In this document: in pieces, positions 197 through 19,354 of the stretch
Layout: every line of letters begins with the position of its first letter
Numbering within the stretch: position 1 is the first letter of the stretch
DNA from: a virus
IMG/VR virus record: IMGVR_UViG_3300022539_000714
Coordinates: 1-24,560 of that record
DNA length: 24,560 nucleotides
Direction: 5' to 3' (one strand)
Program-made: the position numbers and the translations under genes
Notes under the pieces: generated by a model
The model's input: the letters and a program-made list of their open reading frames with translations, nothing else
The model's database searches: none
What the model was told of the DNA's origin: nothing

Positions 197-2515
197 ATGA
201 ATGAATTTTTTAATAAAATTAGAGTAGGGTGTCTAAATGACCATTTCGACATATTGGGTGGTGGCACAGTTCACTCTTTTAAGTTTTTAGAATACTTAAA
301 GAAGTATTACGACATAGACGTTTATCTTCCTAAAACTCCAAAAACAAAAGAATGGATGAAAAAATTTTTACATTTAGACGTAGATGGTTTAACTTTCCAT
401 AAATATACTAAAGGAATAGGAGAGAAATATAATTACCTGTTTTTAAATATTTCTCATTGGAAAGCAGAAGAAACAAAAGCATTTAAAAAATATATGCTTG
501 TTTTTTTCCCTCAATTCTATTTTCCTCTTTACGACTACGAGTTTTTAGCTAATTCAAAATACACAAAGAAAAACATTATTAAACGCTGGGGAAGACAAAA
601 AGAAAAAGTTCATGTGGTTTATCCACCAATAATGACTTCTCAATTCAAACCAGCAAAGAAGAAAGAAAACATGATTGTTCATGTTAGTCGTTTTTCAAAT
701 CCCAAGCCAGAAGTAGATAAAGGACATTCTCAAATGATTGAAGCGTTTAGGGCTATGTGTGATGCTGGGTTAAAGAATTGGACATTTCATCTTGTTGGAC
801 AAGTTCAAGACCCAGATTATCTAATGAGGTTAAAACAAGAAGCTGCCGATTATCCAGTTATTTTTGATGAGGGAATTTCATTTAAAAAATTACAGGAATT
901 ATATGCCAAGGCAAAAATTTATTGGCATTATACAGGGAGTACAATGAAAAGCGAACCAGGGGCACAAGAACATTTTGGAATGACAACAGTTGAAGCGATG
1001 AGTAGTGGTTGTATACCTGTGGTATATGCCTCAGGAGGACAATTAGAAATTATTACAGATGGGCAAGATGGGTTTTTGGTGAAAAGCATTGCCTCATTAA
1101 TAAGTGAAACTTCCAAATTAATTAAATCTCCCAAAGCATTGAAAGATATGTCTGAATCGGCAATTAAAAGAAGTAAGTGTTTTGATGAAAGTGAAACAGA
1201 AAAGAAGTTTTGGTCTGTTATTTCTAAAACAGATAAGGTGAGTATTATTATTATTTGTTGGAACAATGCCAAATATACGAAAGAATGTGTTGATAGACTT
1301 TACGAAGTAACACCACCAGGATTCGAATTAATTCTTATAGATAATAATTCACCTGATAATACAAAACAGGTTTTCAAAGAAATAAAGAAAAAATATAAAA
1401 AGCATGATATTAAACTTATTTTTAATAAAAGCAATCTTGGATTCGCAAAGGGAAATAATGTTGGATTAAAGAAGGCAAAGCGTCCATATATTTGTTATCT
1501 CAACAATGACACTCTCCCCCAATGGGGTTGGCTAGAAAGAATGATTGATGTATTGGAAACAAAAAAGAAAGCAGGAGTTGTTGGGGCAAAACTATACTTT
1601 CCTAAACATGATGTAAAAGGATGGCTAGTCCAACACGCAGGGATTGAGTTTAAAAATAAAGAACCAAAACATATAGGAGGAAGACAGAAAGACGAAAATG
1701 TACGCAAAGTAGGAATAGAAGAAGTTGGGGCAGTTACAGGAGCTTGTATGTTAGTTAGAAAGCGCTTTGCAAAATTCAATGAAGATTTTATAAAAGGGTA
1801 TTATGAAGACATTGACCTTTGTTTAAAAGTAAGGGCAAAAGGTTATAAAGTTTATATAAACCACGAAGCAAAGTTAATTCATTATGAAGGCAAAGGTCAG
1901 AGTATTGCTAGAGCAATTGACAAGAAGAAATTCGGCGATATTGCTCGACGCAATAAAGCTCTCTTTCATAAACTTTGGGACAAAAAGATGAAGAAGTTAC
2001 CTAAAGTTTCTCTGAAACTAGATTTAGCAGCAACCAGTAAAGACCAAAAAGTAGAAATAGGTGGAGGAGAAAATCCTTTATACCCGAAATTTGTTCAGGT
2101 AGATTTAAGAAAGTTACCTGGAGTTAAATATCAAAACGATGCTAGGTTGCTTCCTTTTCCTTCTAATTCTCTATCAATAATCTGTGCTTGTTATGTGCTT
2201 CAATGTCTTTCACAAACCGAAGCAGAAAGGGCTTTAAAAGAATGGTTTCGTTGTTTAAGACCAGGAGGAAAATTAGAAATTTATGTACCTGATTTAGACA
2301 AAATAATAAGAATTTATCTAAGTACAACAGAAGAAAAATTCCTAAAAGAAATTTATGGTAATCAAGAACATGAATTGGATTTTTACCAGACAGGATGGAC
2401 ATTTCAAACTTTGGAAAAATTAGTTTCCAAGGTTAATTTTGTCAGATTAAATATGATTGATAAACCGAAACATAGACCTTTTGCTCTATCAATAGCAGTT
2501 TATAAACCAAAATGA
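197..2515 (+). CDS. Trifunctional fusion: GT4 glycosyltransferase - GT2 glycosyltransferase - SAM methyltransferase
   Basis: A 772-residue protein with three recognisable enzymes in one chain. Residues about 1-345 are a GT-B, GT4-type transferase: a glycine-rich N-terminal loop (ILGGGTVHSF) and the donor-site motif EHFGMTTVEAMSSGC near 255-270. Residues about 347-610 are a GT2/GT-A transferase opening with VSIIIICWNNAKY, with a metal-site-like NND in CYLNNDTLPQ near 436 and the acceptor-side motif YYEDIDLCLKVRAKGY near 535-550. Residues about 618-772 match COG4627-type SAM methyltransferases: VEIGGGENP at the cofactor loop, then ARLLPFPSNSLSII and CLRPGGKLEIYVPDLD. Such a chain could add two sugars in sequence and methylate the product, but acceptor and sugars cannot be read. 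It starts 2 bp after the previous gene without a strong Shine-Dalgarno site, and its stop overlaps the next start (ATGA). Confidence 0.9.
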   Translation: MNEFFNKIRVGCLNDHFDILGGGTVHSFKFLEYLKKYYDIDVYLPKTPKTKEWMKKFLHLDVDGLTFHKYTKGIGEKYNYLFLNISHWKAEETKAFKKYMLVFFPQFYFPLYDYEFLANSKYTKKNIIKRWGRQKEKVHVVYPPIMTSQFKPAKKKENMIVHVSRFSNPKPEVDKGHSQMIEAFRAMCDAGLKNWTFHLVGQVQDPDYLMRLKQEAADYPVIFDEGISFKKLQELYAKAKIYWHYTGSTMKSEPGAQEHFGMTTVEAMSSGCIPVVYASGGQLEIITDGQDGFLVKSIASLISETSKLIKSPKALKDMSESAIKRSKCFDESETEKKFWSVISKTDKVSIIIICWNNAKYTKECVDRLYEVTPPGFELILIDNNSPDNTKQVFKEIKKKYKKHDIKLIFNKSNLGFAKGNNVGLKKAKRPYICYLNNDTLPQWGWLERMIDVLETKKKAGVVGAKLYFPKHDVKGWLVQHAGIEFKNKEPKHIGGRQKDENVRKVGIEEVGAVTGACMLVRKRFAKFNEDFIKGYYEDIDLCLKVRAKGYKVYINHEAKLIHYEGKGQSIARAIDKKKFGDIARRNKALFHKLWDKKMKKLPKVSLKLDLAATSKDQKVEIGGGENPLYPKFVQVDLRKLPGVKYQNDARLLPFPSNSLSIICACYVLQCLSQTEAERALKEWFRCLRPGGKLEIYVPDLDKIIRIYLSTTEEKFLKEIYGNQEHELDFYQTGWTFQTLEKLVSKVNFVRLNMIDKPKHRPFALSIAVYKPK

Positions 2516-3378
2516 AAATAGGAGTAGGAATCATATCATGGAATCGTCCACAGTATTTTAAAGAACTTCTAGTAAGTCTAGAGAGAAACACGCTTGATGA
2601 TTTAGAGTTTCATCTTTTTCAAGATGGACATATTTGTAAATTCACTGGAACAGAAAAAACAAAAAAATCTCTGGTAAAAGAAAGTATAAAGTTGTTTGAA
2701 AAATCAAAGCTACCAAAAAAGAAAGTCCACTTACAAAAGAAAAATGTATCAGTAGCAATCAACCAATTTGAGGCGATGAGATTCTTAATGAAGAATTATG
2801 AACAATTTATCTTTTTGGAGAATGATATAGTTGTTAGCAAAAACTTTTTCGGTTTAATGAAACGAGTTTTAATTCAATTTGAAAACGATAGTCGTATAGC
2901 CTGTATTTCACCAGGATTTAGACGTAAGTGTTATGAGGAAAACATGGATTATTTTGCAAATAAATTAATGTTAACTGATGGCCATTTTTGGGCAGAGGCT
3001 TGTTGGTCTAAGAAGTGGAAATTAGTAGAGGATGAATATATGGCTTATTACAATATTGTTCAACATAGGCCATATGGTCAAAGAGATAATGCTTCAATTT
3101 TGGCGTTATTTAAACGTTCTGGAATTAAGAGAGCCGCTACTTCACAAGATAATGGTAAGGATTGGGCAATATTAAAATCAGGAATGCGAAGGGCTAGATT
3201 TATAGTTAATCGGGCTACTGGTATTGGTGATTATGGTATTCACAGCACGCCGCAAAAGATGAAGAAGATGGGAGATGGTCATAATAAAATATATGAATTT
3301 AAGGGAGAAGTTGAATTCAAATCATTTAAAATTTCTACTCTTAAAGAAAAACCTAAAAAAGAAATTAAAGTTAAATAA
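2512..3378 (+). CDS. GT-A fold glycosyltransferase, GT2-like
   Basis: 288 residues. The N-terminus GVGIISWNRPQYFKELL is the usual first strand and nucleotide-binding loop of GT2-type enzymes. FLENDIVVSKNFF places an END triplet (residues 103-105) where the metal-binding DXD sits, and a GHFWAEACW segment follows near residue 160. It resembles the protein at 9683-10543: both have FxxFQDG near residue 38, SKLPxK near 66-71 and an E/D-N-D site at 103-106, so they are probably paralogues. The Lys-rich tail (about the last 20 residues) looks disordered. No membrane segment is visible, so it is expected to be cytoplasmic. It starts within the ATGA overlap with the upstream fusion gene. Sugar and acceptor are unknown. 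Confidence 0.82.
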   Translation: MKIGVGIISWNRPQYFKELLVSLERNTLDDLEFHLFQDGHICKFTGTEKTKKSLVKESIKLFEKSKLPKKKVHLQKKNVSVAINQFEAMRFLMKNYEQFIFLENDIVVSKNFFGLMKRVLIQFENDSRIACISPGFRRKCYEENMDYFANKLMLTDGHFWAEACWSKKWKLVEDEYMAYYNIVQHRPYGQRDNASILALFKRSGIKRAATSQDNGKDWAILKSGMRRARFIVNRATGIGDYGIHSTPQKMKKMGDGHNKIYEFKGEVEFKSFKISTLKEKPKKEIKVK

Positions 3379-3379
3379 G

Positions 3380-4240
3380 ATGAAGCCAACAATATCAGTC
3401 TTCTTATTCACACACGTAGGAGATAAACCTCATTTAACTAATTGCTTAAAATCAATGGTTGATTTGAAACCAGAGGAAGTGTGTGTTTGCGACACGACCA
3501 GGAACCCTGATTTGTCTATTGAATATCAAAAATGGATTAAAAAAGAGGCTGACAAGTTTGGTTTGCCAATTAAGATAGGTTATTACAGATGGGATAAAAG
3601 TTATAAAAACTGTTGTAACGCCGCTCTAGGGATGTGTACGATGAGATGGGGTATTAGAGTCGATTCAGATGAAATGCTTACTAAAGAGCTTTGTAGAGAT
3701 TTGAGAGATAAAATTGCGAGCTTACCACCTAATGTTTTAGTTTTAAGACCAAAAAGAATTAGCATTATTGACGATGACCGTTGTCTCAAGAATTTATGGA
3801 AACCTGACCATCCAAGATTATCAAAGACAGACCATGGAAGAATATTCAAATTAGGATATGGAAAGTATGTAGGAAGTGATATTCATGAAACCTATCAATA
3901 TCCAGGAAGACTTGACATTAAATGGAACTCTCTAAAACATCCCAAGTTGGATTGGCAAGGTTATTATCTTGTTCATTTATGGCTTTACAAAGATAACTTT
4001 ATGAGGCGTTCTTGGGCTACAGGAGATTTCCCTTTCGAAAAAATAATGGATAAGTTAAGAGAATCAAGCAAGTCTAAAGATAAGGTTTGGAAAATAGCTA
4101 GAGATACATTTTTGAAAAAGAGAAAATGGTTAACAACTAAGATTCCTAAAGATAAAGTACATTGGGTGCCGATAGAGTGGGAAATAGGAAAACATTGGGT
4201 CAAAAGGTATGACGATTATTGGAACAATCAAATAGCATGA
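3380..4240 (+). CDS. GT-A fold glycosyltransferase, GT2-like
   Basis: 286 residues starting at the ATG at 3380, one base after the previous stop. An upstream in-frame ATG at 3275 would add a Lys/Leu-rich leader encoded out of frame inside the previous gene, and I reject it. The N-terminus MKPTISVFLFTHVGDKPHL is the GT2 opening strand, and RVDSDEML (DSD at residues 95-97) is a good DXD metal site. The C-terminal half (from about 120) is rich in Trp, His and Lys and includes SDIHETYQYPG, which may form the acceptor site. Family members of this size are usually soluble or peripheral. It overlaps the next gene by ATGA. Confidence 0.8.
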   Translation: MKPTISVFLFTHVGDKPHLTNCLKSMVDLKPEEVCVCDTTRNPDLSIEYQKWIKKEADKFGLPIKIGYYRWDKSYKNCCNAALGMCTMRWGIRVDSDEMLTKELCRDLRDKIASLPPNVLVLRPKRISIIDDDRCLKNLWKPDHPRLSKTDHGRIFKLGYGKYVGSDIHETYQYPGRLDIKWNSLKHPKLDWQGYYLVHLWLYKDNFMRRSWATGDFPFEKIMDKLRESSKSKDKVWKIARDTFLKKRKWLTTKIPKDKVHWVPIEWEIGKHWVKRYDDYWNNQIA

Positions 4241-5241
4241 AAATAAGTCTCTACGATAGTAATGACAAATTAGCCTACAATCCCAATACAGAACAGAGTC
4301 TTGGGGTAGGAGGAACACAGACAATTATAATCAATGTTGCTAGAGAATTGGCAAAAAAAGGACATGACGTTACTGTTTATATTAAATGTAATTTCCCTGA
4401 TATCTATGATGGAGTTAAGTATTATCAGCATTATGATTATAAACCCTTAGATGATGTCTTAATCGGATTTGAAAGTTTGCCAAAACTTCATGATGCTAAA
4501 AAAGTATTTAATTGGTCAACTAGAGTAGCAGTTAGTGAGGTAACAAAATACAGAGATGTTAATAATTTAATTGTTTTAAGTGAATGGCATAGAGATAGAT
4601 ATGCTTCAGAACTTTCATCAGATTTAGTTGAAAAAATGGTAGTAATCGAACCGGGGGTTAGTAAGCAATTCTTTCAAGATGTTAAAAAATGGGAGTTTAG
4701 TATTGCTTATGCAGGACATCCTGATAAAGGAGGAATGGAAGCTCTTATAGAATTAGTCAGACGAATAAAACCAAAGTTTCCTAATTGCGATATCCATGTT
4801 TACGGAGGAGGAATTTTGTGGGGTTGGGACAATGAACAATATCGTTCTCTTTACGACAAAATGATTAAATCAAAAATTCTTTATCATGGTCAAGCTGGTA
4901 AAAGAAAAATTGTTAAACATCTTAATGGTTCACAAATCTTTATTTATCCTGTGGGGAATCAATATCAAGAAACATTTTCTTTAATAGTATTAGAAGCAAT
5001 GGCTGCTGGCTGTGTAGTTATCGCCAGTGATAATGGGAATATTAAAAGTCTAATTGGAGATGCTGGACATATCATTCCAGGGAACATAAAAGACTATAAA
5101 TGGCATTTAGAAGCAGTCGAGAAAATAACACATCTTTTTCAAAACAACTCTGAAATTGAAAGACTAAGTAAACTTGCAATTAGAAAAGCAAAGAGATATA
5201 GTTGGAAAAGGACAGTTGATAATTTAGAAAAACTGTTATAA
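4237..5241 (+). CDS. GT4-family glycosyltransferase (GT-B fold)
   Basis: 334 residues from ATG 4237, which overlaps the upstream TGA. A start 18 bp further upstream is possible but unnecessary. The N-terminal domain has the glycine-rich loop LGVGGTQTIIINVARELAKK typical of GT4 enzymes, and the C-terminal domain has the donor-binding motif ETFSLIVLEAMAAGCVV (about residues 245-261) followed by IASDNGNIKSLIGDAGHI. IAYAGHPDKGGMEALIEL near 150-167 marks the start of the second Rossmann domain. The enzyme should be a retaining transferase using a nucleotide sugar. Length is near the family norm of about 350. No transmembrane helix is visible. A 26-bp gap follows before the nucleotidyltransferase gene. 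Confidence 0.88.
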   Translation: MKISLYDSNDKLAYNPNTEQSLGVGGTQTIIINVARELAKKGHDVTVYIKCNFPDIYDGVKYYQHYDYKPLDDVLIGFESLPKLHDAKKVFNWSTRVAVSEVTKYRDVNNLIVLSEWHRDRYASELSSDLVEKMVVIEPGVSKQFFQDVKKWEFSIAYAGHPDKGGMEALIELVRRIKPKFPNCDIHVYGGGILWGWDNEQYRSLYDKMIKSKILYHGQAGKRKIVKHLNGSQIFIYPVGNQYQETFSLIVLEAMAAGCVVIASDNGNIKSLIGDAGHIIPGNIKDYKWHLEAVEKITHLFQNNSEIERLSKLAIRKAKRYSWKRTVDNLEKLL

Positions 5242-5267
5242 AAGTTTTTAGAAAGAACACTATTGTT

Positions 5268-5735
5268 ATGAAAATAGGATATGCTTATGTCGTTGGCGAT
5301 TTATTACATATCGGCCATTTAAAACATCTTCAATCTTGTAAATCCCTTTGCGATAAGTTAATTGTTGGTGTTCTTACTGATGGGGCTGTTATGGAAAAGA
5401 AAGACAAGCCTATTATTTCTTTTGGTGAGCGTTTAGAAACAACTAAGAATCTTAAATCTGTAGATGTAGCAGTAAAACAAGAAACCTATTCTCCACTTCC
5501 AAACGTAAGACAGCTTCGTGTAGATATTCTTTTTGAAAGCACTAGTCATTCTGACGAAGCCATTGGAGATGCCGAAAGAACAATGAAATATATGAATGGC
5601 AGATTAATAGTAATGCCTTATTTTGCAGGACAAAGTTCTACAAGTATTAAGAATAAGATTTTAAAAAAGTGGAAGTATAAGAGTCAGGAACATCCTAAAG
5701 TTATAAATTTAGAATCTAGAAAGGAGGCAAAATGA
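5268..5735 (+). CDS. Cytidylyltransferase-like nucleotidyltransferase (TagD/LicC type)
   Basis: 155 residues with the two signatures of the HxGH nucleotidyltransferase family: DLLHIGHLKHLQ (HIGH at 14-17) and a C-terminal QSSTSIKNKI equivalent to the ISSTxIR nucleotide-binding motif. VGVLTDGAVMEKKDKPIISF and the FGERLE helix also fit the cytidylyltransferase branch. Known members couple CTP to glycerol-3-phosphate, phosphocholine, phosphoethanolamine or aminoethylphosphonate. The LicD-like gene two genes downstream suggests that a CDP-linked alcohol or amine is made here and passed to a glycan. Which alcohol is not visible. The Shine-Dalgarno for the following gene (AAAGGAGG) lies inside its last codons, and its stop overlaps the next ATG. 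Confidence 0.82.
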   Translation: MKIGYAYVVGDLLHIGHLKHLQSCKSLCDKLIVGVLTDGAVMEKKDKPIISFGERLETTKNLKSVDVAVKQETYSPLPNVRQLRVDILFESTSHSDEAIGDAERTMKYMNGRLIVMPYFAGQSSTSIKNKILKKWKYKSQEHPKVINLESRKEAK

Positions 5736-6115
5736 CAAGTCATAAATTGTCGGTGCTTAAAAGTATTATCTGGCGTATCATGGGCGTTATTGTCCTAGCA
5801 TTAGTAACATACTTTTTTACCAGACATTGGATTACTACTACCTACATCACCTTTGTTCATCACACTACTTTTTTGCTAGTTTTTTACTTGCATGAGAGAG
5901 TGTGGATGAAATTGTACGATAAAGATACAAAGTGGAGAAGGGTCGCTAAGGCTTTTACCTACGAGATTATTTTAGGTATGGGAATTGGTGGATTAATTGT
6001 ATATTTCTTCACAGGTGAATGGTCTAAAGTAACTCAGATAACTGGTACATATACAGTTATCAAATTAATAATGTACTACATTAATGAGAAAGTTTGGGCT
6101 AAAATAGAAAAATGA
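5732..6115 (+). CDS. DUF2061-type four-helix membrane protein (two tandem repeats)
   Basis: 127 residues, and the only clearly membrane-embedded protein in the operon. Two copies of a unit of about 50 residues are visible: residues 10-58, ending in FYLHERVW, and 73-122, ending in YYINEKVW. Each unit has two hydrophobic stretches, giving about four membrane helices. The closing HERVW/NEKVW signature and the K-S/A-x2-xR/E opening match my memory of DUF2061. That family has no firm function and is sometimes found next to sulfate- or sugar-activating genes. A strong AAAGGAGG precedes the ATG. Placement between the cytidylyltransferase and the LicD-like gene, with ATGA overlaps on both sides, suggests work in the same step, perhaps membrane recruitment. 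Confidence 0.78.
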   Translation: MTSHKLSVLKSIIWRIMGVIVLALVTYFFTRHWITTTYITFVHHTTFLLVFYLHERVWMKLYDKDTKWRRVAKAFTYEIILGMGIGGLIVYFFTGEWSKVTQITGTYTVIKLIMYYINEKVWAKIEK

Positions 6116-6612
6116 TTCCATCTAAAAACATAAAAGGGGCAGATGAAATTTTGGAAACGTGTCATGATATTTGTAAAGAATTAAACATTCCTATAATGTT
6201 AATTTACGGAACTGCTCTAGGATTTTATCGAGATGGAGGATTTATTAAAGGAGATAGTGATATTGATATTAGGGTTGTGTGTAATAGAGAAAAATGGGAT
6301 GAGTTGGTAAGAGAATTAGATAAAAAGGATATCAAGCAAACTAATAAGCCAAAAGGGTTTGCTTTTAGGAAGCATGATATTCTTACTTGTATTGAGAGGT
6401 CGGAAAAGGTTGGTATAGTAACTTTTGAAAATGGTTGGGAATATATGGTTCAACCTCTTTATCATGAATTTGATATTATAGAATATAAAGGTAGGAAATA
6501 TAATGTTCCACATCCGATTGAAAAATATCTTGAAAATAGATATGGAGAAGGTTGGAAAACACCTAATCCTAAATTTGATAAAACAAGTGCGATACCGCCA
6601 CGTATAAAATAA
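6112..6612 (+). CDS. LicD-like nucleotidyltransferase-fold phosphotransferase
   Basis: 166 residues. IYGTALGFYRDGGFIKGDSD followed by IDI (about 31-53) is the LicD/nucleotidyltransferase-fold core, with Asp at 48, 50 and 52 as likely metal ligands. The C-terminal YLENRYGEGWKTPNPKFD matches the usual LicD ending. LicD proteins move phosphocholine (in relatives, other phospho-alcohols) from a CDP carrier to a sugar. Together with the cytidylyltransferase at 5268-5735 this makes a plausible two-enzyme phospho-decoration module. The protein is shorter than many LicD proteins (about 260 residues), and the middle is compact. It starts in the ATGA overlap with the membrane protein. Assignment to the fold is firm. 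The transferred group is inferred. Confidence 0.8.
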   Translation: MIPSKNIKGADEILETCHDICKELNIPIMLIYGTALGFYRDGGFIKGDSDIDIRVVCNREKWDELVRELDKKDIKQTNKPKGFAFRKHDILTCIERSEKVGIVTFENGWEYMVQPLYHEFDIIEYKGRKYNVPHPIEKYLENRYGEGWKTPNPKFDKTSAIPPRIK

Positions 6613-6614
6613 AA

Positions 6615-7265
6615 ATGGAAAGAGCTTTTAGCCTTGCCTATATAAAGAAAAATAATCTTATAACTAAAGGTAGAGATATTTACGAATTTGGCGTTTATAA
6701 AGGCAAGAGTATGGTTCATATACACAAAGAGTTAGAAAAACAAAATTTAGAGGTTCATAAAGTTTATGGTTTTGATTCCTTTGTTGGTTTACCATCAGAA
6801 GCAAAAAAAGTCCCTATTCGTAAAGGCTGGATTCCTGGACAATTCAGTGCAGTAGAATATTTCGAAAACGATAATATACAAAGTATAATAAAAATACTAA
6901 AGAAAAAGTTGGCTTTTAGTAAGATTGCGATAGAAATAATACCAGGATTTTTTAAGGACGTATTAAATAAGAATCTAGTAGAAAAATATAAATTTAAACC
7001 AGCTTGTTTTGTAGAAATTGATGTTGATTTATACATATCAGCCTATCAAGTCTTAGATTTCTTAGTTAAAAATGGATTAATTGTTAAAGATACAATAATT
7101 GCCTATAATGATTGGGGAGGGGTAGAAGAATTTAAAGGTGGAGAAAGTAAGGCACATAAAGAAATAACAGAAAAATATGGTATTACAGCTAAAGAAATCT
7201 TTAACTATGGTATTTGGCCTAACACAAGCAAAGCATTTATAATTAAAGAAATTAGAAAGGAATAA
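6615..7265 (+). CDS. TylF/macrocin-type SAM-dependent O-methyltransferase
   Basis: 216 residues. IYEFGVYKGKSMVHI (about 22-36) is the SAM-binding loop of the TylF/MycF group, and VYGFDSFVGLPSEA (about 50-63) is its second cofactor-contact motif. FVEIDVDLYISAYQVLDFL near 132-150 and IAYNDWGGVEEFKGGESKA near 163-181 fit the metal-binding and catalytic region of sugar O-methyltransferases. Characterised members methylate deoxysugar hydroxyls in antibiotics, and many relatives lie in polysaccharide gene clusters. Methylation of a sugar in the phage-encoded glycan is the natural reading here. The ATG is two bases after the LicD-like stop, with no strong Shine-Dalgarno, so translation is probably coupled. 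Confidence 0.85.
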   Translation: MERAFSLAYIKKNNLITKGRDIYEFGVYKGKSMVHIHKELEKQNLEVHKVYGFDSFVGLPSEAKKVPIRKGWIPGQFSAVEYFENDNIQSIIKILKKKLAFSKIAIEIIPGFFKDVLNKNLVEKYKFKPACFVEIDVDLYISAYQVLDFLVKNGLIVKDTIIAYNDWGGVEEFKGGESKAHKEITEKYGITAKEIFNYGIWPNTSKAFIIKEIRKE

Positions 7266-7267
7266 AA

Positions 7268-8224
7268 ATGAAACGTGTACTTGTTACAGGAGCAGGTGGA
7301 TTTATAGGTCATCATTTGGCTCGATTCCTAAAGAATAAAGGTTATTGGGTTCGAGGAGTAGATTTAGAGAAACCTAACTTCAGTGGCATGGAGGACTTCA
7401 ACGAGTTTTATATCAGAGATTTAAGAGACCCTAAAAATTGTCTTGATATGACAAAAAGTATTGATTGGACATACAATTTAGCGGCACTCAATGGAAGTAT
7501 TGAATTTACAACTGATAATAAAGCAGAACTCTCTCACAATAACGCCATGATTAATTTGAATATGGCAGAGGCTTGTTGGAAAAATAATGTAAAAAGAGCC
7601 TTCTATGCCAGTAGTGCTTGTGTTTATCCAATGCGTCACCAAGAAACTGATAAGGTTCATGCCTTAAACGAAGATGATGTAGCTCCAGCAGACCCAGACA
7701 CAGAATATGGCTGGGAGAAGCTATTCTCTGAGCATGTCTGGATGTCTTACGAGGCAGATAGGGGACTTGAAGTTAGGATAGCAAGGTTTATAAACATTTA
7801 TGGACCAGAGTGTTTGATAGACACTCTCAAAAGTAAAGCTCCAATGGCTCTTACAAGAAAGGTTATAGAAGCAGGAGAAGGTGGAGATGTTCATATTTGG
7901 GGAGATGGTGGTCAAAAGAGAACCTTTTGTTATATAGATGATTGTGTGAGAGGAATACAGGCATTAATGGAATCTGATGTAAACATTCCGATAAATATTG
8001 GAAGTGATAGGCTTTTCTCTATTAATGAGTTAGTGGATGTTATCACAGAGATTGAAGGTGTAAATGTAAAGAAGGTTCATCAATTAGATAAGGTACAGGG
8101 AGTTAGAACAAGACAAGCTGATTTAACAAGAGCCAAAAAACTTCTTGGTTGGGAGAATAAAATGGACATCAAAGAAGGATTAACTATTATTAACAAATTC
8201 ACACATGAACAGTTAAAGAAATAG
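7268..8224 (+). CDS. GDP-mannose 3,5-epimerase-like extended SDR epimerase
   Basis: 318 residues. The NAD loop VTGAGGFIG (Gly 8, 11, 14) and catalytic YGWEK (Tyr147, Lys151) mark an extended short-chain dehydrogenase. Beyond that it follows plant GDP-mannose 3,5-epimerase closely. ASSACVYP carries Cys118, and KSKAPMALTRK carries Lys190. From memory the Arabidopsis enzyme uses Cys145, Tyr174 and Lys217. The spacings Cys to Tyr (29) and Cys to Lys (72) are identical here. IPINIGSDRLFSINELVDVI and GVRTRQADL also match the plant pattern. The likely reaction is GDP-D-mannose to GDP-L-galactose (or GDP-L-gulose), supplying a rare L-sugar to the glycosyltransferases. An AAAGGA Shine-Dalgarno precedes the ATG. 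Neighbours are 2 bp away on both sides. The fold is certain and the exact substrate is likely. Confidence 0.88.
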   Translation: MKRVLVTGAGGFIGHHLARFLKNKGYWVRGVDLEKPNFSGMEDFNEFYIRDLRDPKNCLDMTKSIDWTYNLAALNGSIEFTTDNKAELSHNNAMINLNMAEACWKNNVKRAFYASSACVYPMRHQETDKVHALNEDDVAPADPDTEYGWEKLFSEHVWMSYEADRGLEVRIARFINIYGPECLIDTLKSKAPMALTRKVIEAGEGGDVHIWGDGGQKRTFCYIDDCVRGIQALMESDVNIPINIGSDRLFSINELVDVITEIEGVNVKKVHQLDKVQGVRTRQADLTRAKKLLGWENKMDIKEGLTIINKFTHEQLKK

Positions 8225-8226
8225 TT

Positions 8227-9090
8227 ATGAAGAACAAAGTACAATTAATGATTTTTTCTTATAATCGTCCATTACAATTAGAACTTTTAGTAAGCAGTAT
8301 TAGAAAGAACATTACCGATTTTAATAAAATCATTGTTACCTTTAATTATTCCGATGATAGATTTCTCAAGGGATATGAGAATTTCAAGGAAAAAGGATTA
8401 GTTGATGAATGGCATTGTGATAAAGACATTGCCTATACCCCTGAATTTAAGAATTACCTCGTAGAATTAATGGGTGATGAGTATGATTATACTTGTTTGT
8501 TTTCTGACGATGCTATTGTTTATGGAAAAGTTTCTATGGACAATGTTATTGCCCAGATGACAGATGATGTTATTTCTTTTTCTTTGAGGTCAGGTCTCAA
8601 TGCCAAATATAGCTTCTATGGAGGGAAAACAATAATTGAAAATCCATGGGGAGAGTATGAAGATTTGGGGGACTTTATTAAATGGAATTGGACAGAGTAC
8701 AACCCAAAGCGTTGCAATGGTTATCCAATAGGGTTTGGTGATGGTTGTGTCTTCAAGACCAAAATAATCAAAGACTTGTTAGGGAGAGTTGAAGGACAAT
8801 CGCCTAATGAATTAGAAAGACATTTGAATCAAATTGAAAACAGAGAAGTAATAACTCAAAAAAAGTTAGTTGCATACAAACACAGTAAGTTAGTAAGTAA
8901 TCCAGTTAACAATGTACAAACGTTTTCTCCCTTATTTAGTGGTGAAAGATTTAGTTACCCTGTTGAAAAATTGAATGACAAATATTTAGAAGGATATGTA
9001 GTTGATTTTGATAAGATAGATTTTAGTGATATTAAAGCAACGCATCAGGAGTTAGCGCTCCCATTAAAATTATCAAACAATGGAGGATAA
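8227..9090 (+). CDS. Putative GT-A fold glycosyltransferase (divergent GT2-like)
   Basis: 287 residues. VQLMIFSYNRPLQLELLVSS is the standard opening of GT2-type enzymes, and CLFSDDAIVYG (Asp94-Asp95) lies where the metal-binding acidic pair is expected. After residue 100 the sequence is divergent, with NGYPIGFGDGCVFKTKII near 165-182 as a probable acceptor-site loop. The last 60 residues have no recognisable motif. No membrane segment is seen. It begins two bases after the epimerase stop, and the next gene is 5 bp downstream with a GGAGG site inside this gene's end. Glycosyltransferase fold is likely, and donor and acceptor are unknown. Confidence 0.7.
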   Translation: MKNKVQLMIFSYNRPLQLELLVSSIRKNITDFNKIIVTFNYSDDRFLKGYENFKEKGLVDEWHCDKDIAYTPEFKNYLVELMGDEYDYTCLFSDDAIVYGKVSMDNVIAQMTDDVISFSLRSGLNAKYSFYGGKTIIENPWGEYEDLGDFIKWNWTEYNPKRCNGYPIGFGDGCVFKTKIIKDLLGRVEGQSPNELERHLNQIENREVITQKKLVAYKHSKLVSNPVNNVQTFSPLFSGERFSYPVEKLNDKYLEGYVVDFDKIDFSDIKATHQELALPLKLSNNGG

Positions 9091-9095
9091 AAAAT

Positions 9096-9686
9096 ATGCT
9101 TAATTTGAAAATAAGAGCATTTGATTTCTTGCTCAAAGATAAAAAGAATTTGGTTGGTGCAGAAATAGGAGTATTTAAGGGAGGGCATGCTTTTGAAATG
9201 TTAAAATTTCTTGATATAAAAATCTTTTATTTAGTCGAACCCTATCGCACCTATATTGGTCATGGGAATAAAACACATCATCCAGAATCAGCAGAAAAAG
9301 TTGCAAGAGCATTGCTACAACGATATCAACATAAAGTAATATGGATTAAGTCTTCATCAGTTGAAGCAGTCGCTGGTTTTCAAGATAAAAGTTTAGATTT
9401 TGTTTATATTGACGGGAATCATGATTATAAATTTGCGTTACAAGATATTGAATTGTGGACACTGAAAGTAAAGCAGGGTGGAATTATAGGTGGGCATGAT
9501 TATGGAGAAAACTTTCCTGGAGTAGAAAAAGCTATAGAAGAATATTCTAGTAAAAATAAGATTGAGTATAAAACTAATTTCTTTGGAAATGAAAAAGTTA
9601 ATACTGACTGGGCATTTAAAAAAGGTGGTAAGTTAGAAGTCTGGAAAGTTCCTAGACCTGAAGCTTCTAGTTTTAAATCTCTATGA
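9096..9686 (+). CDS. Class I SAM-dependent methyltransferase (Methyltransf_24 type)
   Basis: 196 residues. VGAEIGVFKGGHAFEML (about 20-36) is the SAM loop, and FYLVEPYRTY (about 44-53) supplies the acidic residue that usually holds the ribose. LDFVYIDGNHDYKFALQDIE (about 100-119) is diagnostic of the CmcI/Methyltransf_24 branch, where Asp and His often bind a metal ion. GGIIGGHDYGENFPGV near 128-143 completes the family pattern. Relatives in polysaccharide clusters are thought to be sugar O-methyltransferases. GGAGGATAA precedes the start, and the stop overlaps the next ATG. It belongs to a different subfamily from the other methyltransferases here, so it probably acts on another position. 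Confidence 0.85.
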   Translation: MLNLKIRAFDFLLKDKKNLVGAEIGVFKGGHAFEMLKFLDIKIFYLVEPYRTYIGHGNKTHHPESAEKVARALLQRYQHKVIWIKSSSVEAVAGFQDKSLDFVYIDGNHDYKFALQDIELWTLKVKQGGIIGGHDYGENFPGVEKAIEEYSSKNKIEYKTNFFGNEKVNTDWAFKKGGKLEVWKVPRPEASSFKSL

Positions 9687-10543
9687 ACAATCTTTGTATC
9701 GCAATCAGGAGTTTTAAACGACCCGAATATTTAAAGCAGTGTTTAGAATCTTTAGAGAGCAATTCAGACTTAAATGTTGATTTTTTCTTCTTCCAAGATG
9801 GAGCAGTTAATCCGTTCTCAGGTAAAAGATATGCTACTGATGAAGAAGTAAAGGCATCTTTAAAAGTTTTTCAAGATTCTAAATTACCTAATAAAACAAT
9901 CTTTGTTAGCCAACACAATTTAGGCCCGATTATTAGAAATAGACTTCAACTAGAATATGTATTTCCCTTATATGAATATGGAGTATTTCTTGATAATGAC
10001 CTTGTCTTCAATAAATATTACATTAAAACATTGAAGGTTTTATTTAAACAATTCAAAAATAGCGATGCTGGTTCGATTCAAACATCCTTTAGATATCGTA
10101 GGAATAATATTCAATCTTTAGAAGATGCTATAAAGCTTCAGAATAAAGTGGCTTATGGATTCTCTCATAGATGGGAAATTGGATTGTGGAGAGAGAGTTG
10201 GGAGAAGATTAAACCTATTATTGCACCATATTTTGAGATGACTGCAAGAGTCGATTTTAAAGAGTTTTTATATAATCATTCTGTCTATAAAGACATTCGA
10301 GAAAAAAGTCGAGGCATTTATGGATGTCAACATGGAACAGGAGACACGCCAACAGAAGATTTTGTCCTAGAAAAATCAATAGAAAAAGCAGGATATAAAG
10401 GGTTACATACATTAACATTACGACATAAAACAATTGGTGAAAAAGGAATGTTTAGTTTTAGAGCAACCCGATATAGAGATGGGGGATATATAAAAATCCC
10501 ATTACATGATATCGGGGATATTGATAAATATGAAATACAATGA
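9683..10543 (+). CDS. GT-A fold glycosyltransferase, GT2-like (paralogue of the gene at 2512)
   Basis: 286 residues. LCIAIRSFKRPEYLKQCLES is the GT2 opening, and GVFLDNDLVFNKYYIK carries a DND metal site at 104-106. The layout matches the protein at 2512-3378 (FFFFQDG near 34-40, DSKLPNK near 65-71, an aromatic/Trp-rich middle), which suggests duplication and divergence inside the operon. HRWEIGLWRESWEKI near 163-177 is equivalent to the GHFWAEACWSKKW region of that protein. It is soluble, with no signal peptide. It starts in an ATGA overlap with the methyltransferase upstream and ends in an ATGA overlap with the next methyltransferase. Confidence 0.8.
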   Translation: MNNLCIAIRSFKRPEYLKQCLESLESNSDLNVDFFFFQDGAVNPFSGKRYATDEEVKASLKVFQDSKLPNKTIFVSQHNLGPIIRNRLQLEYVFPLYEYGVFLDNDLVFNKYYIKTLKVLFKQFKNSDAGSIQTSFRYRRNNIQSLEDAIKLQNKVAYGFSHRWEIGLWRESWEKIKPIIAPYFEMTARVDFKEFLYNHSVYKDIREKSRGIYGCQHGTGDTPTEDFVLEKSIEKAGYKGLHTLTLRHKTIGEKGMFSFRATRYRDGGYIKIPLHDIGDIDKYEIQ

Positions 10544-11142
10544 CAAATACTAATTGGCAAAATAACCTTACCAGTGAATTAAGTTTTTGGACTAATTATT
10601 TTAAAACCAAATCTTATAAATATGTTAAAGAAAGCCATCTTCTTTTCTTTAAAAAGTGGTTTAAGGTACCGATTGAAATATTTTCGGAAGCAATTATTTT
10701 AGATGTTGGCTCTGGTCCCTCAAGTCATCTTTATGACATTGAAGCTCGAATAAAAGTTGCTATTGACCCTTTAATGGATAAGTACGAGAAAATAACAAAG
10801 AACTATGAATTTCCAAATGATGATGTTATCAAACTTAAAGGCAGGGGTGAAGAATTACCTTTTACTAGTGAGTCATTCGACTTTGTGTTTACGTTTAATG
10901 GTATTGACCATTGGGCAGATTGGCAAAAAGGGATTTTAGAAATAAAAAGAGTTTTAAAGAAAAATGGCAAGTTATTATTATATGTTGTATTTGATAGACC
11001 TAATCCAAATCCGCATCATCCGTTTTGTATTGATGAAGATTCAATAAAGTGGATTGAAGAACAAGGATTCAAGATTATTCAAAGTGAAATATTACTTATT
11101 GAAAAGAGAAGAAAATTTTATGGGATGTTTAAAAAGTTATGA
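10540..11142 (+). CDS. Class I SAM-dependent methyltransferase (Methyltransf_11 type)
   Basis: 200 residues. IILDVGSGPSSHLYDIE (about 52-68) is the SAM-binding loop, and KVAIDPLMDKYEKI provides the acidic residue after strand 2. GRGEELPFTSESFDFVFTFN near 103-122 is motif II. ILEIKRVLKKNGKLLLYVVF is the typical post-motif region of this group. Residues 1-45 form an aromatic, Lys-rich helical extension. The substrate cannot be told from the fold. The operon context suggests a sugar or a glycan-bound group. Translation is coupled to both neighbours by ATGA overlaps. Confidence 0.83.
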   Translation: MTNTNWQNNLTSELSFWTNYFKTKSYKYVKESHLLFFKKWFKVPIEIFSEAIILDVGSGPSSHLYDIEARIKVAIDPLMDKYEKITKNYEFPNDDVIKLKGRGEELPFTSESFDFVFTFNGIDHWADWQKGILEIKRVLKKNGKLLLYVVFDRPNPNPHHPFCIDEDSIKWIEEQGFKIIQSEILLIEKRRKFYGMFKKL

Positions 11143-11843
11143 AACTAATAACGGATTTACATTTAAAATATAAAGACAAACCAATTTGGATAGTAGGTTC
11201 TGACCCTACTCTTGAAGATTATCCTGATAATTTTTTAGATAATAGATTGGCAATTACTCTCCATTTAGCTTACATAAAGTTCCCAAATGTTACTTATAGA
11301 TATTTCAATGAGAGAGATAGATTTGTTTTCTTAAAAGAGAAATATCCAGAGATTTTAGATAAAGTAAACATTTTTGGTTACCCTTTCTATAATCGTCCAC
11401 AAGCGGTATCTGATGAAGCAATAGGGAAAGCTAAAGAGAAAGCATATTATCTTAATTTAAAGCCCTATCCGCCTAGTGGCAATCCTAGTGCTATCTTTAG
11501 TGATTCGGGTCCTAATGCCATGCGTAGAATGGTTGGAGAAGCTGTTAGTGCCACTTCTAGTACCTTTGGTGGACATGGGACGTGTTTGCATCCCTGTATG
11601 TATGTAGCGCTTATGATGGGGTGTAATCCTGTCAATATTATTGCTTGTAATTTTAAGAATATTGATGGAAAAGAACATTTTGGAGAGACTAATAAGATAG
11701 ACCATGATATGCGACCTCAAACTCCATCATTTACAGGTTACAGAGGCACAAGAATGACTCGCGGATTAGATGCTATTATTGCCGGATGTAATGACCATAA
11801 GATTAAAGTTAATCGGATAGAAAAATATGATAATATAGAGTAA
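11139..11843 (+). CDS. Putative Rossmann-like DUF115/sialyltransferase-like protein
   Basis: 234 residues. After a short N-terminal helix, KPIWIVGSDPTLEDYPDNFL (about 14-33) resembles the phosphate-binding GxGPSL loop of DUF115 (MptE-like) and GT42-type proteins. A second conserved-looking block, CLHPCMYVALMMGCNPVNII (about 149-168), is where those families have a helix followed by a strand. The middle carries a Ser/Gly-rich stretch with a Cys and several His. In other surface-glycan clusters DUF115-type proteins are suspected transferases that use nucleotide-linked acidic sugars. I see only the loop pattern here, so this is tentative. It starts in an ATGA overlap, and 28 bp separate it from the next gene. 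Confidence 0.55.
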   Translation: MKLITDLHLKYKDKPIWIVGSDPTLEDYPDNFLDNRLAITLHLAYIKFPNVTYRYFNERDRFVFLKEKYPEILDKVNIFGYPFYNRPQAVSDEAIGKAKEKAYYLNLKPYPPSGNPSAIFSDSGPNAMRRMVGEAVSATSSTFGGHGTCLHPCMYVALMMGCNPVNIIACNFKNIDGKEHFGETNKIDHDMRPQTPSFTGYRGTRMTRGLDAIIAGCNDHKIKVNRIEKYDNIE

Positions 11844-11871
11844 GTAATATTGAAAGGTATAGGATTGAAGT

Positions 11872-12654
11872 ATGAAAGTAAAAGTAGGAGTCTTTATTTT
11901 AAACTACAAGCGACCAAATACAGTTACTAGAGTTATTGACTCTGCTCTCCATCAAACAATCAAGCCTGAAGCTGTTTATATTTGGAATAACAATCCCGAA
12001 ACCACAATTAACTATCAAGGGTGTATTAATGTTAATTCTCAAGAAAACTTCCTTTGTATTATTCGTCATGTCGTTGCCTTTACTAGAGATATAGATTATT
12101 GGGTTTTTATTGATGATGATGTGGCAATGAAGCCAAAGGCAATAGAAAACTTTTTAGAATATAGTAAAAAGTATCCTGAATCAATTTTAGGCTATTATGG
12201 AAGAAACATTACTAGTGGGCTTTATTCTCTTGACCGTTCTAATTGGTATACAAATAAAGAGAAAGAAGTAGACATGGTTATGGGAATGATTCACTTTTGT
12301 AAAAGAAGTAAGTTGATTAATTCTTTCATTCTTAAAAAAGAGATTCCTGATTTACCATTAACAGAAGATGACATACTTTTAAGTCTTGGAAACAAGTTTA
12401 TTGATAAGCAAAAGAATTATGTAATTCCTTATAGTAATGAGAGTGGACCAATGCCTCTTGATAGTGGTTATGGTGGACTCAGTATTAAAGGAGGTCATTT
12501 ACAAAGAAGGATAGATGCTGTTAGGCGTATATTAGAGTGGGCAGGAAAAATGCCAAAACCAAGTAAAAGAGAACATGGTAAACCAGTTGAACCGATTGGA
12601 GAACTCAAAGAAGTTAAGTTTAGTGCGAAAGCAAAAATATGCCAAGCGAAGTGA
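11872..12654 (+). CDS. GT-A fold glycosyltransferase with GT2/GT64-like features
   Basis: 260 residues. KVGVFILNYKRPNTVTRVID is the GT2-type opening. DYWVFIDDDVAMKPKAIENF gives an Asp triplet at 81-83. The order IWNNNPE, FIDDDV, SILGYYGRNI, DMVMGMIHFC and a late EDD (LPLTEDDILLSLG, about 162-174) also resembles exostosin-like GT64 domains. In those, a C-terminal ED pair is catalytic. Residues 215-260 form a basic, Pro/Lys-rich tail not expected in either family. A GAAAGG site lies upstream of the ATG. GT-A fold is well supported. GT64-like versus GT2 is open. Confidence 0.75.
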   Translation: MKVKVGVFILNYKRPNTVTRVIDSALHQTIKPEAVYIWNNNPETTINYQGCINVNSQENFLCIIRHVVAFTRDIDYWVFIDDDVAMKPKAIENFLEYSKKYPESILGYYGRNITSGLYSLDRSNWYTNKEKEVDMVMGMIHFCKRSKLINSFILKKEIPDLPLTEDDILLSLGNKFIDKQKNYVIPYSNESGPMPLDSGYGGLSIKGGHLQRRIDAVRRILEWAGKMPKPSKREHGKPVEPIGELKEVKFSAKAKICQAK

Positions 12655-12706
12655 TAGAATGTAAATTAAATAAGATTTTAGTAACTGCCTTAGGAAGGAA
12701 ACCATT

Positions 12707-13474
12707 ATGAAAATAGGAATCGTTGGCTACGGAGTTGTTGGAAAAGCTCAAATTGAGTTTTTTGGTGAACATTTTTGTCTTATTCACGACCCTAGCTCAG
12801 GATACAAAAATAGAGCTTTAATTAATAAAGAGTGTGATTTAGCCTTTGTATGTGTTCCAACTCCCTCTAAAAAAGATGATACTTGCGATACTTCGATTGT
12901 TGAAGAATCTGTTAAGTGGTTAGAGACTCCTATTATTGTAATTCGTTCTGCTGTTGTTCCCGGCACAACAGACTATTTAATAGATAAGTACAAAAAGAAT
13001 ATTGTTTACCAACCAGAGTATTTAGGAGAAACCCCTCTACACCCCTATTTAGATTTAAGAAAGCGTGAATTTGTCATCTTGGGAGGCGAAAGAAAATTAA
13101 CCAAAGTACTGATTATGTATTACCAGAAATTTATGCACCCTGATACTCACTTTTACCAAACAGACACAATAACTGCCGAGTTGGTAAAGTATATGGAAAA
13201 TGCTTGGTTAGGAACTAAAGTAACCTTCTGTAATGAGTTCTATGAGATTGCCAAGACTCTTGGTGTTGATTATAATGAATTAAGAGAGCTATGGCTTGCT
13301 GATAAAAGGATTAATCGCAGCCATACTTTTGTCTATCCAGATAAAAGAGGTTTCAGTGGTAAATGTCTTCCAAAAGACATTAAAGCTATAGTTAAAAAGT
13401 TGGAGGAAAAGGGCTATGAAGCAAAGTTCATCAAAAAAGTCCTCGAAGAAAACGAGAGAATCAAAAAGCTCTAA
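12707..13474 (+). CDS. Short UDP-glucose/GDP-mannose 6-dehydrogenase-like enzyme
   Basis: 255 residues. The NAD loop GIVGYGVVG (Gly 7, 9, 12), SAVVPGTTDYL, YQPEYLGE, TAELVKYMENAWLGTKVTF (Lys161, Asn165) and GFSGKCLPKDI (Cys220, Lys223, Asp224) are the conserved elements of nucleotide-sugar 6-dehydrogenases, including the thiohemiacetal cysteine. Such enzymes oxidise a hexose C6 to a uronic acid, for example UDP-glucose to UDP-glucuronate. Usual length is about 390-450. This one stops soon after the catalytic cysteine and lacks the C-terminal nucleotide-binding domain, so it is either a naturally minimal form or has altered substrate binding. AGGAAGG lies before the ATG. Its last 59 bases overlap the next gene in another frame. 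Confidence 0.85.
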   Translation: MKIGIVGYGVVGKAQIEFFGEHFCLIHDPSSGYKNRALINKECDLAFVCVPTPSKKDDTCDTSIVEESVKWLETPIIVIRSAVVPGTTDYLIDKYKKNIVYQPEYLGETPLHPYLDLRKREFVILGGERKLTKVLIMYYQKFMHPDTHFYQTDTITAELVKYMENAWLGTKVTFCNEFYEIAKTLGVDYNELRELWLADKRINRSHTFVYPDKRGFSGKCLPKDIKAIVKKLEEKGYEAKFIKKVLEENERIKKL

Positions 13475-13988
13475 AGTTTGTTATTTAGATTTTGACGATT
13501 TCGGAGAGAAAAATAGTCGTTTAGATTGGTTTTGGAGACTTCATAAAGAATTCCCTCATTTCAAAGTGAATCTATTTGCTATTCCTTGGGACAATCAAAG
13601 GAAAGAGTGGATGAAATATATCCAAAAACTTGATTGGATTCAGTTATGTGTTCATGGGTTTTATCACGAAAATAATGAAGAAGTGGAAAAAGGAATGTTA
13701 GGTGCTTATTGCCCAGACAGAGGGTTTGCTAAAGTTTATCGGGCTCCTTTCTGGCAACTTTCAGACAAAATGTATAACCTTCTTAAAAAGTTAGACTATA
13801 AAATAATGCTTCATCCTGATGACCCAAGAGAGGGAATTAAATACAATTGGAATATTAAAGACTCTCCGCCTTACTTAGATATTCTTTATGGGCATGGCCA
13901 TATTCAAGACACACAAGGAAATGGGTTAGTAGAAGCATTTGAGAACATTCTTAAACTTCCTATTAATACTAAGTTTAAATTTCTATGA
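13416..13988 (+). CDS. NodB-like (CE4) polysaccharide deacetylase-like protein
   Basis: 190 residues. CYLDFDDFG (Asp27-Asp28) corresponds to the TFDDG metal and base motif, CVHGFYH (His80, His84) to the HxxxH zinc pair, and VYRAPFWQLS to the RxPxG motif. LYGHGHIQ (His160, His162) may supply the late catalytic His. These residues fit removal of an acetyl group from an N-acetylated or O-acetylated sugar. The ATG at 13416 lies inside the dehydrogenase gene with GGAGG about 10 bp upstream. No better start exists downstream, so the first 20 Ser/Lys-rich residues come from the 59-bp overlap. The stop overlaps the next ATG. Family assignment is good. Whether it deacetylates the phage glycan or a host polymer is unknown. 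Confidence 0.72.
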   Translation: MKQSSSKKSSKKTRESKSSKVCYLDFDDFGEKNSRLDWFWRLHKEFPHFKVNLFAIPWDNQRKEWMKYIQKLDWIQLCVHGFYHENNEEVEKGMLGAYCPDRGFAKVYRAPFWQLSDKMYNLLKKLDYKIMLHPDDPREGIKYNWNIKDSPPYLDILYGHGHIQDTQGNGLVEAFENILKLPINTKFKFL

Positions 13989-14545
13989 AAATACCAAAAG
14001 GCTATCAAAAAATACAAACAGAAAAGTCTTCTACAAGTCGTGGAACTAAATGGGGACGACGAGCCATACAATCTGTCGACAAATATCTAAAATATTTTAA
14101 GGGCAAGATATTAGAAATAGGCTGTAATGATGGCTTTGCTATGGACTATATTAAAGAAAAAGGATTTGAAGTAGAGGGAATAGATATTGCTAAACATAAA
14201 TTAAAAATTGCCAAAGAGCATGGACTTAAAGTTCAATTTGCTTATCAAGAGAAAATGCCTTTTGGTGATAAATCATTCGATACAATCTTTTCTTCTCATA
14301 CACTAGAACATAGTTATAATGCAGAACAAGCTGTTAAAGAATATCAAAGAGTGGCAAAAAGAGCGATTGTTATTATTCCCATTGAATCAAATAGAATAGC
14401 TTTTCCTGAAGTACATGTAAGCGCTTTTCGTTCAAAAGAAGATTTGATTAACTTATTTAAAGATAAAGGGAAAATAATCTTAGAAGAAGCACGTAACAAT
14501 ATAGAGCCTGAATATATAGTTATTGTTGATTTTTATGAAACCTGA
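13985..14545 (+). CDS. Class I SAM-dependent methyltransferase (Methyltransf_11 type)
   Basis: 186 residues. GKILEIGCNDGFAMDYIKEK (about 40-59) is the SAM loop. VEGIDIAKHKLKIAKEHGLK places an Asp after strand 2. QEKMPFGDKSFDTIFSSHTL followed by EH (about 87-108) is the standard motif II region of Methyltransf_11. RAIVIIPIESNRIAFPEVHV near 125-145 is the post-core segment. The N-terminal 38 residues are basic and probably helical. It is distinct in sequence from the methyltransferase at 10540 apart from the shared fold. It overlaps the deacetylase stop (ATGA), and its own last 11 bases overlap the next gene. Confidence 0.83.
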   Translation: MKIPKGYQKIQTEKSSTSRGTKWGRRAIQSVDKYLKYFKGKILEIGCNDGFAMDYIKEKGFEVEGIDIAKHKLKIAKEHGLKVQFAYQEKMPFGDKSFDTIFSSHTLEHSYNAEQAVKEYQRVAKRAIVIIPIESNRIAFPEVHVSAFRSKEDLINLFKDKGKIILEEARNNIEPEYIVIVDFYET

Positions 14546-15353: not shown

Positions 15354-15354
15354 A

Positions 15355-19306: not shown

Positions 19307-19354
19307 GTAAAAGTTTCAGATTTCATAATTATTAATGCGTAAAGGAGAAAAAGC

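Follow-up and report, generated by a model that had tools for sequence, protein, structure and literature searches.

Background

Among the known systems that resemble the locus described here, the lic operon (LicB-LicA-LicC-LicD) groups import, nucleotide activation and LicD-dependent transfer of phosphocholine in a manner similar to the viral module. The operon, however, includes the LicA kinase, a LicC of the PF12804 class and the membrane protein LicB, whereas the viral module carries a nucleotidyltransferase (CyT) that matches PF01467 only and a DUF2061 membrane protein, and neither a PF12804-class LicC nor a LicA-type kinase was found in it. In teichoic acid synthesis of the TagD/TagF type (CDP-glycerol), TagD has the HxGH fold in common with CyT and ties for its best structural match; a TagF-like gene is present in one relative of the module (L190, and weakly in L088) and a GlpT-like transporter occupies the membrane slot of others. 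TagF, however, stands where the locus under study has LicD, and TagD possesses Arg113 within RTEGISTT, Lys46 and a GDDW motif, which the viral CyT lacks. The cytidylyltransferase (CyTase) of Fom1, which forms a CMP-phosphonate, belongs to PF01467 as well, aligns with the lowest rmsd and has the same arginine-less PYxxxxSST segment as CyT, but its GDDW motif is not kept in the core viral CyT family. Phosphonate tailoring pathways in addition need a PEP mutase, which none of 48 viral records contained. The FKRP/FKTN system, supplied with CDP-ribitol by ISPD, follows a similar CDP-polyol donor logic and FKRP is the best solved relative of the LicD-like profile, but the viral protein is a single domain of 166 aa. 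ISPD is a cytidylyltransferase of a different superfamily. Cellular DUF2061 proteins (PF09834) have the same domain, a two-helix unit, mostly in one copy and without CyT neighbors, unlike the viral form, a tandem repeat tied to CyT. The literature mentions of DUF2061 that we found were confined to tables or passing remarks.

Genomic context

The window, i.e., the whole stretch of DNA that was analyzed, is a virus fragment of 24,560 bp from IMG/VR (IMGVR_UViG_3300022539_000714). The presence of a prohead protease (17855-19306, + strand) and an SU10-type major capsid protein (19355-20371, + strand) identifies it as part of a tailed-virus genome; in this region (17855..20371) matches were obtained with Pfam (PF04586, 7.3e-9; PF17236, 1.7e-28) and PHROGs (phrog_752, 1.6e-26), and the capsid protein has about 24% identity to its matches from Bacillus, Bacteroides and Leptospira phages. 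A viral glycosylation island, delimited by Pfam annotation, spans positions 197..17171 (+ strand) and comprises many glycosyltransferases and methyltransferases, an NAD epimerase, a UDP-glucose dehydrogenase-like gene and a class V aminotransferase; it presumably makes the acceptor glycan of the module. Its first gene product (197-2515) is one protein of 772 aa with GT4-type, GT2-type and methyltransferase domains, and the aminotransferase (15304-16497; PF00266, E = 1.2e-80) is cysteine desulfurase-like.

The closest relative from a cellular bin (L027) lies on a contig of viral look in a Bathyarchaeota MAG. In one such MAG (G065, 1.3 Mb), four close CyT relatives were located on contigs C77, C201, C62 and C118, and two more were present among 397 other genomes of the same phylum. 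This suggests that virus contigs were binned into G065, and some members of the virus group may have an archaeal host.

Linkage of the three genes

The three open reading frames of the module are intact and encode CyT, a predicted CTP:phospho-compound cytidylyltransferase of 155 aa (5268..5735, + strand; PF01467, E = 1.6e-10), a long DUF2061 membrane protein of 127 aa (5732..6115, + strand; PF09834, E = 8.7e-18, two matched stretches), and a LicD/FKRP-like phosphotransferase of the NTase fold with 166 aa (6112..6612, + strand; PF04991). Start and stop codons overlap as ATGA at both joints, at 5732..5735 (+ strand) between CyT and DUF2061 and at 6112..6115 (+ strand) between DUF2061 and LicD, and a AAAGGAGG-like site precedes DUF2061. 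An earlier note on this DNA had described an HxGH enzyme and a LicD-like protein flanking a four-helix DUF2061 protein with ATGA at both joints, and open reading frames, Pfam and AlphaFold2 all agree with this description; its view of a nucleotidyltransferase and LicD-type decoration module within a viral glycosylation island is likewise supported.

The same note took the tight linkage as a clue to DUF2061 and expected it to recur in other genomes. Searching IMG/VR with DUF2061 alone yielded the long form on 47 contigs, which fall into 45 clusters at 95% identity and into 36 at 80%, and CyT was found ≤ 0.62 kb from it in every one of them (47/47), mostly overlapping or abutting, with CyT-DUF2061 overlaps occurring in most relatives. 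CyT came first in 30 contigs, DUF2061 in 10, and a single DUF2061-CyT reading frame was present in 7; two gene orders together with fusions point to functional coupling, not inherited gene order. LicD was located within 2.5 kb in 28 of the 47 contigs, and in loci that have it, it adjoined the CyT-DUF2061 pair in 23 out of 29 cases, approximately five times the chance level (4.7 expected under random placement). The core unit is thus CyT-DUF2061, with LicD as a frequent but optional third partner: the claimed linkage stands for the pair, and the suggested survey of DUF2061-LicD neighbors gave a clear excess, while the three-gene version does not hold throughout. Islands of viral sugar genes are mosaic and variable in content, and the gene order could in principle be due to chance, but this is hardly credible given the complete CyT-DUF2061 linkage, the seven fusions, the two gene orders and the repeated exchange at a single slot described below. 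As a clue to the function of DUF2061, the linkage is well founded.

The DUF2061 protein

The DUF2061 protein belongs to PF09834 (64.9 bits, cut-off 23.1), and its AlphaFold2 model (pLDDT 86.9) consists of four long helices (4-30, 33-61, 68-94, and 97-126), the long viral form being a tandem pair of two-helix repeats. The loop charges follow a positive-inside pattern (+4.35 for the middle loop, compared with +0.93 and +0.57 for the others) and an N-in/C-in topology is predicted, the C-terminus being placed inside by this pattern and by the cytosolic CyT that is fused to it in some relatives. Within the helices K10, R15, H43, K73, and E78 are invariant, and H44 and K111 nearly so.

DUF2061 had no sequence matches in PDB, and comparison of the model with PDB folds returned nothing credible (the lowest Foldseek E was 2.6, and the VIA Z did not exceed 4.3). 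Matches in BFVD were only two phage proteins already labeled DUF2061, no match was present in PHROGs or in a phage collection, and a plasmid search gave two weak matches only. The IMG/VR search with the DUF2061 alignment alone separated two classes, long (~125 residues) and short (~70 residues). No short-form contig in IMG/VR had a CyT nearby as in the long form; cellular DUF2061 proteins are mostly a single two-helix unit, and the short ones had mixed neighbors with no common CyT. DUF2061 is a common domain, present in one bacterial phylum in 24 of 80 sampled genomes. A shared role in sulfate activation was considered and rejected, as APS kinase and PAPS reductase, found as 9 and 5 of 69 neighbors, dropped to 1 of 64 each in a broader sample.

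Several short forms occur in other arrangements. In two other phages (L125:4968-5729 and L131:5226-6029) a fusion gene with APS-kinase-like and HxGH nucleotidyltransferase-like parts is directly followed by a short DUF2061, so that the domain is associated with an HxGH enzyme, albeit a distant one, for a second time. An APS-kinase-like P-loop domain is naturally fused to a C-terminal DUF2061 in L120:5569-6189, and archaeal DUF2061 domains are fused to what appear by eye to be paired CBS domains (L248:262-837 and L302:1105-1704). Paired CBS domains are common in regulated transporters.

Exchange of DUF2061 for OPA-like MFS genes

In four CyT loci without DUF2061 (L147, L178, L180, and L210, all on fragmentary virus contigs), the 3' end of CyT shares 8-14 nt with an MFS gene. 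The encoded proteins have 379-391 aa, and the best NCBIfam match of all four is TIGR00881, the OPA family that includes PgtP, UhpC and GlpT (E = 1.6e-59, 1.9e-26, 5.4e-38, and 1.4e-24, respectively). As the scores (202, 93, 131, and 87 bits) remain far below the curated cut-off of 408, the family and exact substrate class of these proteins are tentative; the one from L147 also matched the GlpT structure 1pw4 (E = 9.4e-33). MFS_1 was found in 4 of 49 whole records, exactly these four loci, and in none of the 37 records with DUF2061 (Fisher p about 0.002). A search of IMG/VR with an alignment of the four proteins recovered only the loci from which its patterns were derived. OPA-like genes from the phage database were set aside, since their records either lack annotation or seem to be of bacterial origin (UhpC etc.).

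The four loci fall in four places among DUF2061-bearing enzymes in the CyT tree, and its well-supported branches require four independent exchanges. One case is that of L147, whose CyT is 93% identical over the aligned region to that of the DUF2061-carrying L074; the upstream genes of the two match and the difference begins in the very next gene. Similarly, the CyT of L180 is 84% identical to that of L027. Both DUF2061 and an OPA gene are missing from the loci of seven non-redundant CyTs, which indicates that a transporter is not indispensable. In L069:7889-8978 and L147:8447-9542, which are LicD-less relatives, a split transketolase-like gene pair was seen by eye after the module.

These exchanges are most simply explained if DUF2061 has the same task beside CyT as the OPA-like protein, which would be to move the phosphorylated substrate of the enzyme. 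It is also conceivable that DUF2061 is no transporter and serves as a membrane anchor or scaffold for CyT (and for LicD or glycosyltransferases), as its small size, the direct fusion and tight coupling to CyT, the lack of a fold relative among known transporters and the fusion of short forms to APS-kinase-like (L120) and CBS-like (L248, L302) domains would all fit. A 12-helix transporter of OPA-like type would nevertheless be an improbable substitute for an anchor, yet one is found in the slot four separate times, and the charged residues inside the DUF2061 helices are invariant, so that we regard an anchoring role as rather unlikely, though by a small margin the likeliest of the rivals. Transport, as we read it, is indicated by the gene exchange alone; we propose it for the long form in viruses and extend it to the whole DUF2061 family as no more than a suggestion.

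The HxGH nucleotidyltransferase

Both its profile score (41.7 bits, cut-off 21) and its HxGH motif place CyT in PF01467. The catalytic HIGH motif corresponds to residues 14-17 (5307..5318, + strand), with H14 and G16 invariant and H17 conserved in at least 90% of 61 sequences. At the place of the TagD segment RTEGISTT, CyT has PYFAGQSST (residues 117-125; 5616..5642, + strand), and according to the alignment to TagD and Fom1 its Tyr118, invariant in the 61 sequences, occupies the position of Arg113, a residue essential in TagD (PMC8262930). Fom1 also lacks this arginine in the alignment, as does HldC. Furthermore, Lys46 of TagD is not conserved, and ESTSH stands in place of GDDW.

The profile built from 61 relatives matched Pcyt2 (8.6e-29), the Fom1 CyTase (7.9e-27) and TagD (1.8e-18), and also HldC. 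For the CyT domain of a fused relative (L076, 257 aa; AlphaFold2 model with a mean pLDDT of 93.8), the best structural alignments were those to TagD (Z 19.4, rmsd 1.9 Å, 125 aligned residues) and, with equal Z, to the Fom1 CyTase (Z 19.4, rmsd 1.2 Å, 119 aligned residues, 33% identity). CyT is thus Fom1/TagD/Pcyt2-like, no TagD ortholog by motif, and neither a LicC nor a PntC. The comparison with LicC/LicD pairs made in the earlier note is not supported where the enzyme itself is concerned: PntC and LicC are of the MobA-like class PF12804 while the Fom1 CyTase class is PF01467 (PMC6697681), so that the analogy merges unrelated classes of nucleotidyltransferases, and the active-site comparison, which the note had recommended, showed CyT to be without the essential arginine of TagD.

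As CyT has neither the arginine of RTxGISTT nor a GDDW motif, its CTP specificity is uncertain. An ATP-type HxGH enzyme (HldE/HldC or archaeal RibL-like) that forms ADP-heptose or another ADP-compound, with LicD as a mere neighbor, would agree with the absence of this arginine, as in HldC, and with NCBIfam, where the HldE C-domain model for ADP-heptose (TIGR02199) scored higher than the TagD-type equivalog (TIGR01518), both below their cut-offs (67.2 bits vs. 181.5 and 38.2 bits vs. 165.4, respectively). We consider such an activity improbable, as the profile and structure matches favor the CTP enzymes Pcyt2, Fom1 and TagD, Fom1 uses CTP for its phosphonate and is without the arginine too, and the nearby LicD, TagF-like and CDP-OH_P_transf genes all use CDP-alcohols.

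Other CyT architectures were seen among the relatives. Three proteins (L201:5932-7119, L211:5944-7116, and L096:6806-7795) combine CyT with what looks by eye like a C-terminal methyltransferase-like domain; in L201 and L211, LicD is immediately upstream and DUF2061 is absent. In another locus without DUF2061, a MobA-like NTP_transf_3 protein of the LicC superfamily (L196:6393-6980; weak, below cut-off) comes straight after CyT.

The LicD-like protein, product and substrate

The LicD-like protein belongs to PF04991 with 38.1 bits (cut-off 22.6), the match covering the N-terminal residues 21-55 only. An IMG/VR search with the single LicD sequence gave no matches, and relatives were collected via the DUF2061 and CyT loci; R40, D48, D50, D52, and W148 are invariant in the 39 relatives and G33 is conserved in at least 90%, with D48, D50 and D52 forming the acidic signature of the NTase fold. 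The closest solved relative of the profile is the fukutin-related protein (6kaj, E = 2e-15), and a weak resemblance to the Mf1 cholinephosphotransferase was noted.

The usual gene behind DUF2061 is LicD. In relatives without it, a TagF-like gene (PF04464, CDP-glycerol glycerophosphotransferase) directly follows DUF2061 in L190 (8.6e-15), and a weak match is found after it in L088. The sole CDP-alcohol phosphatidyltransferase among 49 records (L175) is likewise near CyT-DUF2061. As the LicD, TagF-like and CDP-OH_P_transf families all use CDP-alcohols, a CDP-X is supported as the product of CyT. No APH/LicA-type kinase was found in 50 viral records (13 of 14 control genomes positive) and no PEP mutase in 48 (11 of 14 positive), with the reservation that the records may be fragments. 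They thus do not encode a full route to phosphocholine or phosphonate. This is consistent with the import of a ready-made phospho-compound, although the host might furnish the compound or a kinase as well.

The earlier note had proposed phosphocholine, phosphoethanolamine or phosphonate-like groups. This version, in which DUF2061 would be an accessory to a LicC/LicD-type decoration, is favored by the profile search, where Pcyt2 and the CyTase of Fom1 came first among solved structures, by the adjacent LicD-like gene and by the weak Mf1 resemblance. As CyT is outside the LicC/PntC superfamily, neither a LicA kinase nor a PEP mutase was found in the viral records and the OPA-type partners better fit polyol or sugar phosphates, we judge it unlikely; phosphocholine or phosphonate is possible as a decoration but not favored. 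The TagD-like fold, the GlpT-like partner and the TagF-like transferases instead make glycerol-3-phosphate or a similar polyol phosphate our leading guess for the substrate, held tentatively and somewhat short of an even chance.

With regard to direction, DUF2061 might work outward and export or flip CDP-X, the completed phospho-glycan or some leaving group. Products of the glycosylation island could end up outside the cell, and the presence of an MFS protein in the same slot leaves either direction possible. Characterized OPA transporters, however, bring organophosphates into the cell in exchange for phosphate, CyT needs CTP, which is inside the cell, and no kinase that would make the phospho-substrate there was found in the 50 records; export thus has a low probability in our view.

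Proposed module and conclusions

Taken together, we favor by a narrow measure a transport-activate-attach module made of the three genes, with DUF2061 as its probable transporter. The linkage of the genes, the fusions, the exchange for OPA-like genes and the LicD or TagF-like genes in the transferase slot were observed; transport by DUF2061, its direction, the use of CTP and the substrate are what we infer. DUF2061 would carry a ready-made small organophosphate inward across the membrane. The cytosolic CyT, translationally coupled to DUF2061 or fused at its C-terminus, would then join the imported compound to CMP from CTP, yielding a CDP-alcohol (or a CMP-phosphonate), and the LicD/FKRP-like enzyme would move the phospho-alcohol onto the glycan made by the neighboring viral glycosyltransferases. 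In relatives that have it, the TagF-like enzyme may perform this transfer of X-phosphate to the viral glycan. Our verdict is that the module is a CDP-alcohol decoration resembling a kinase-less lic pathway, yet no lic operon.

DUF2061 itself may represent a new minimal transporter family built of two-helix units, for organophosphates or related oxyanions and joined in these viruses to CyT, which would trap the incoming substrate as CDP-X, a proposal to which we give a little less than even weight. The exchange with OPA-type genes is the first real hint of the function of DUF2061 and offers a concrete, testable role, the transport of a substrate for the neighboring nucleotidyltransferase. If this is true, the virus would supply its own import-and-activation route for glycan decoration via DUF2061 and CyT, and the locus suggests that viruses can encode the import, activation and transfer needed for glycan phospho-decoration without the kinase step of lic.
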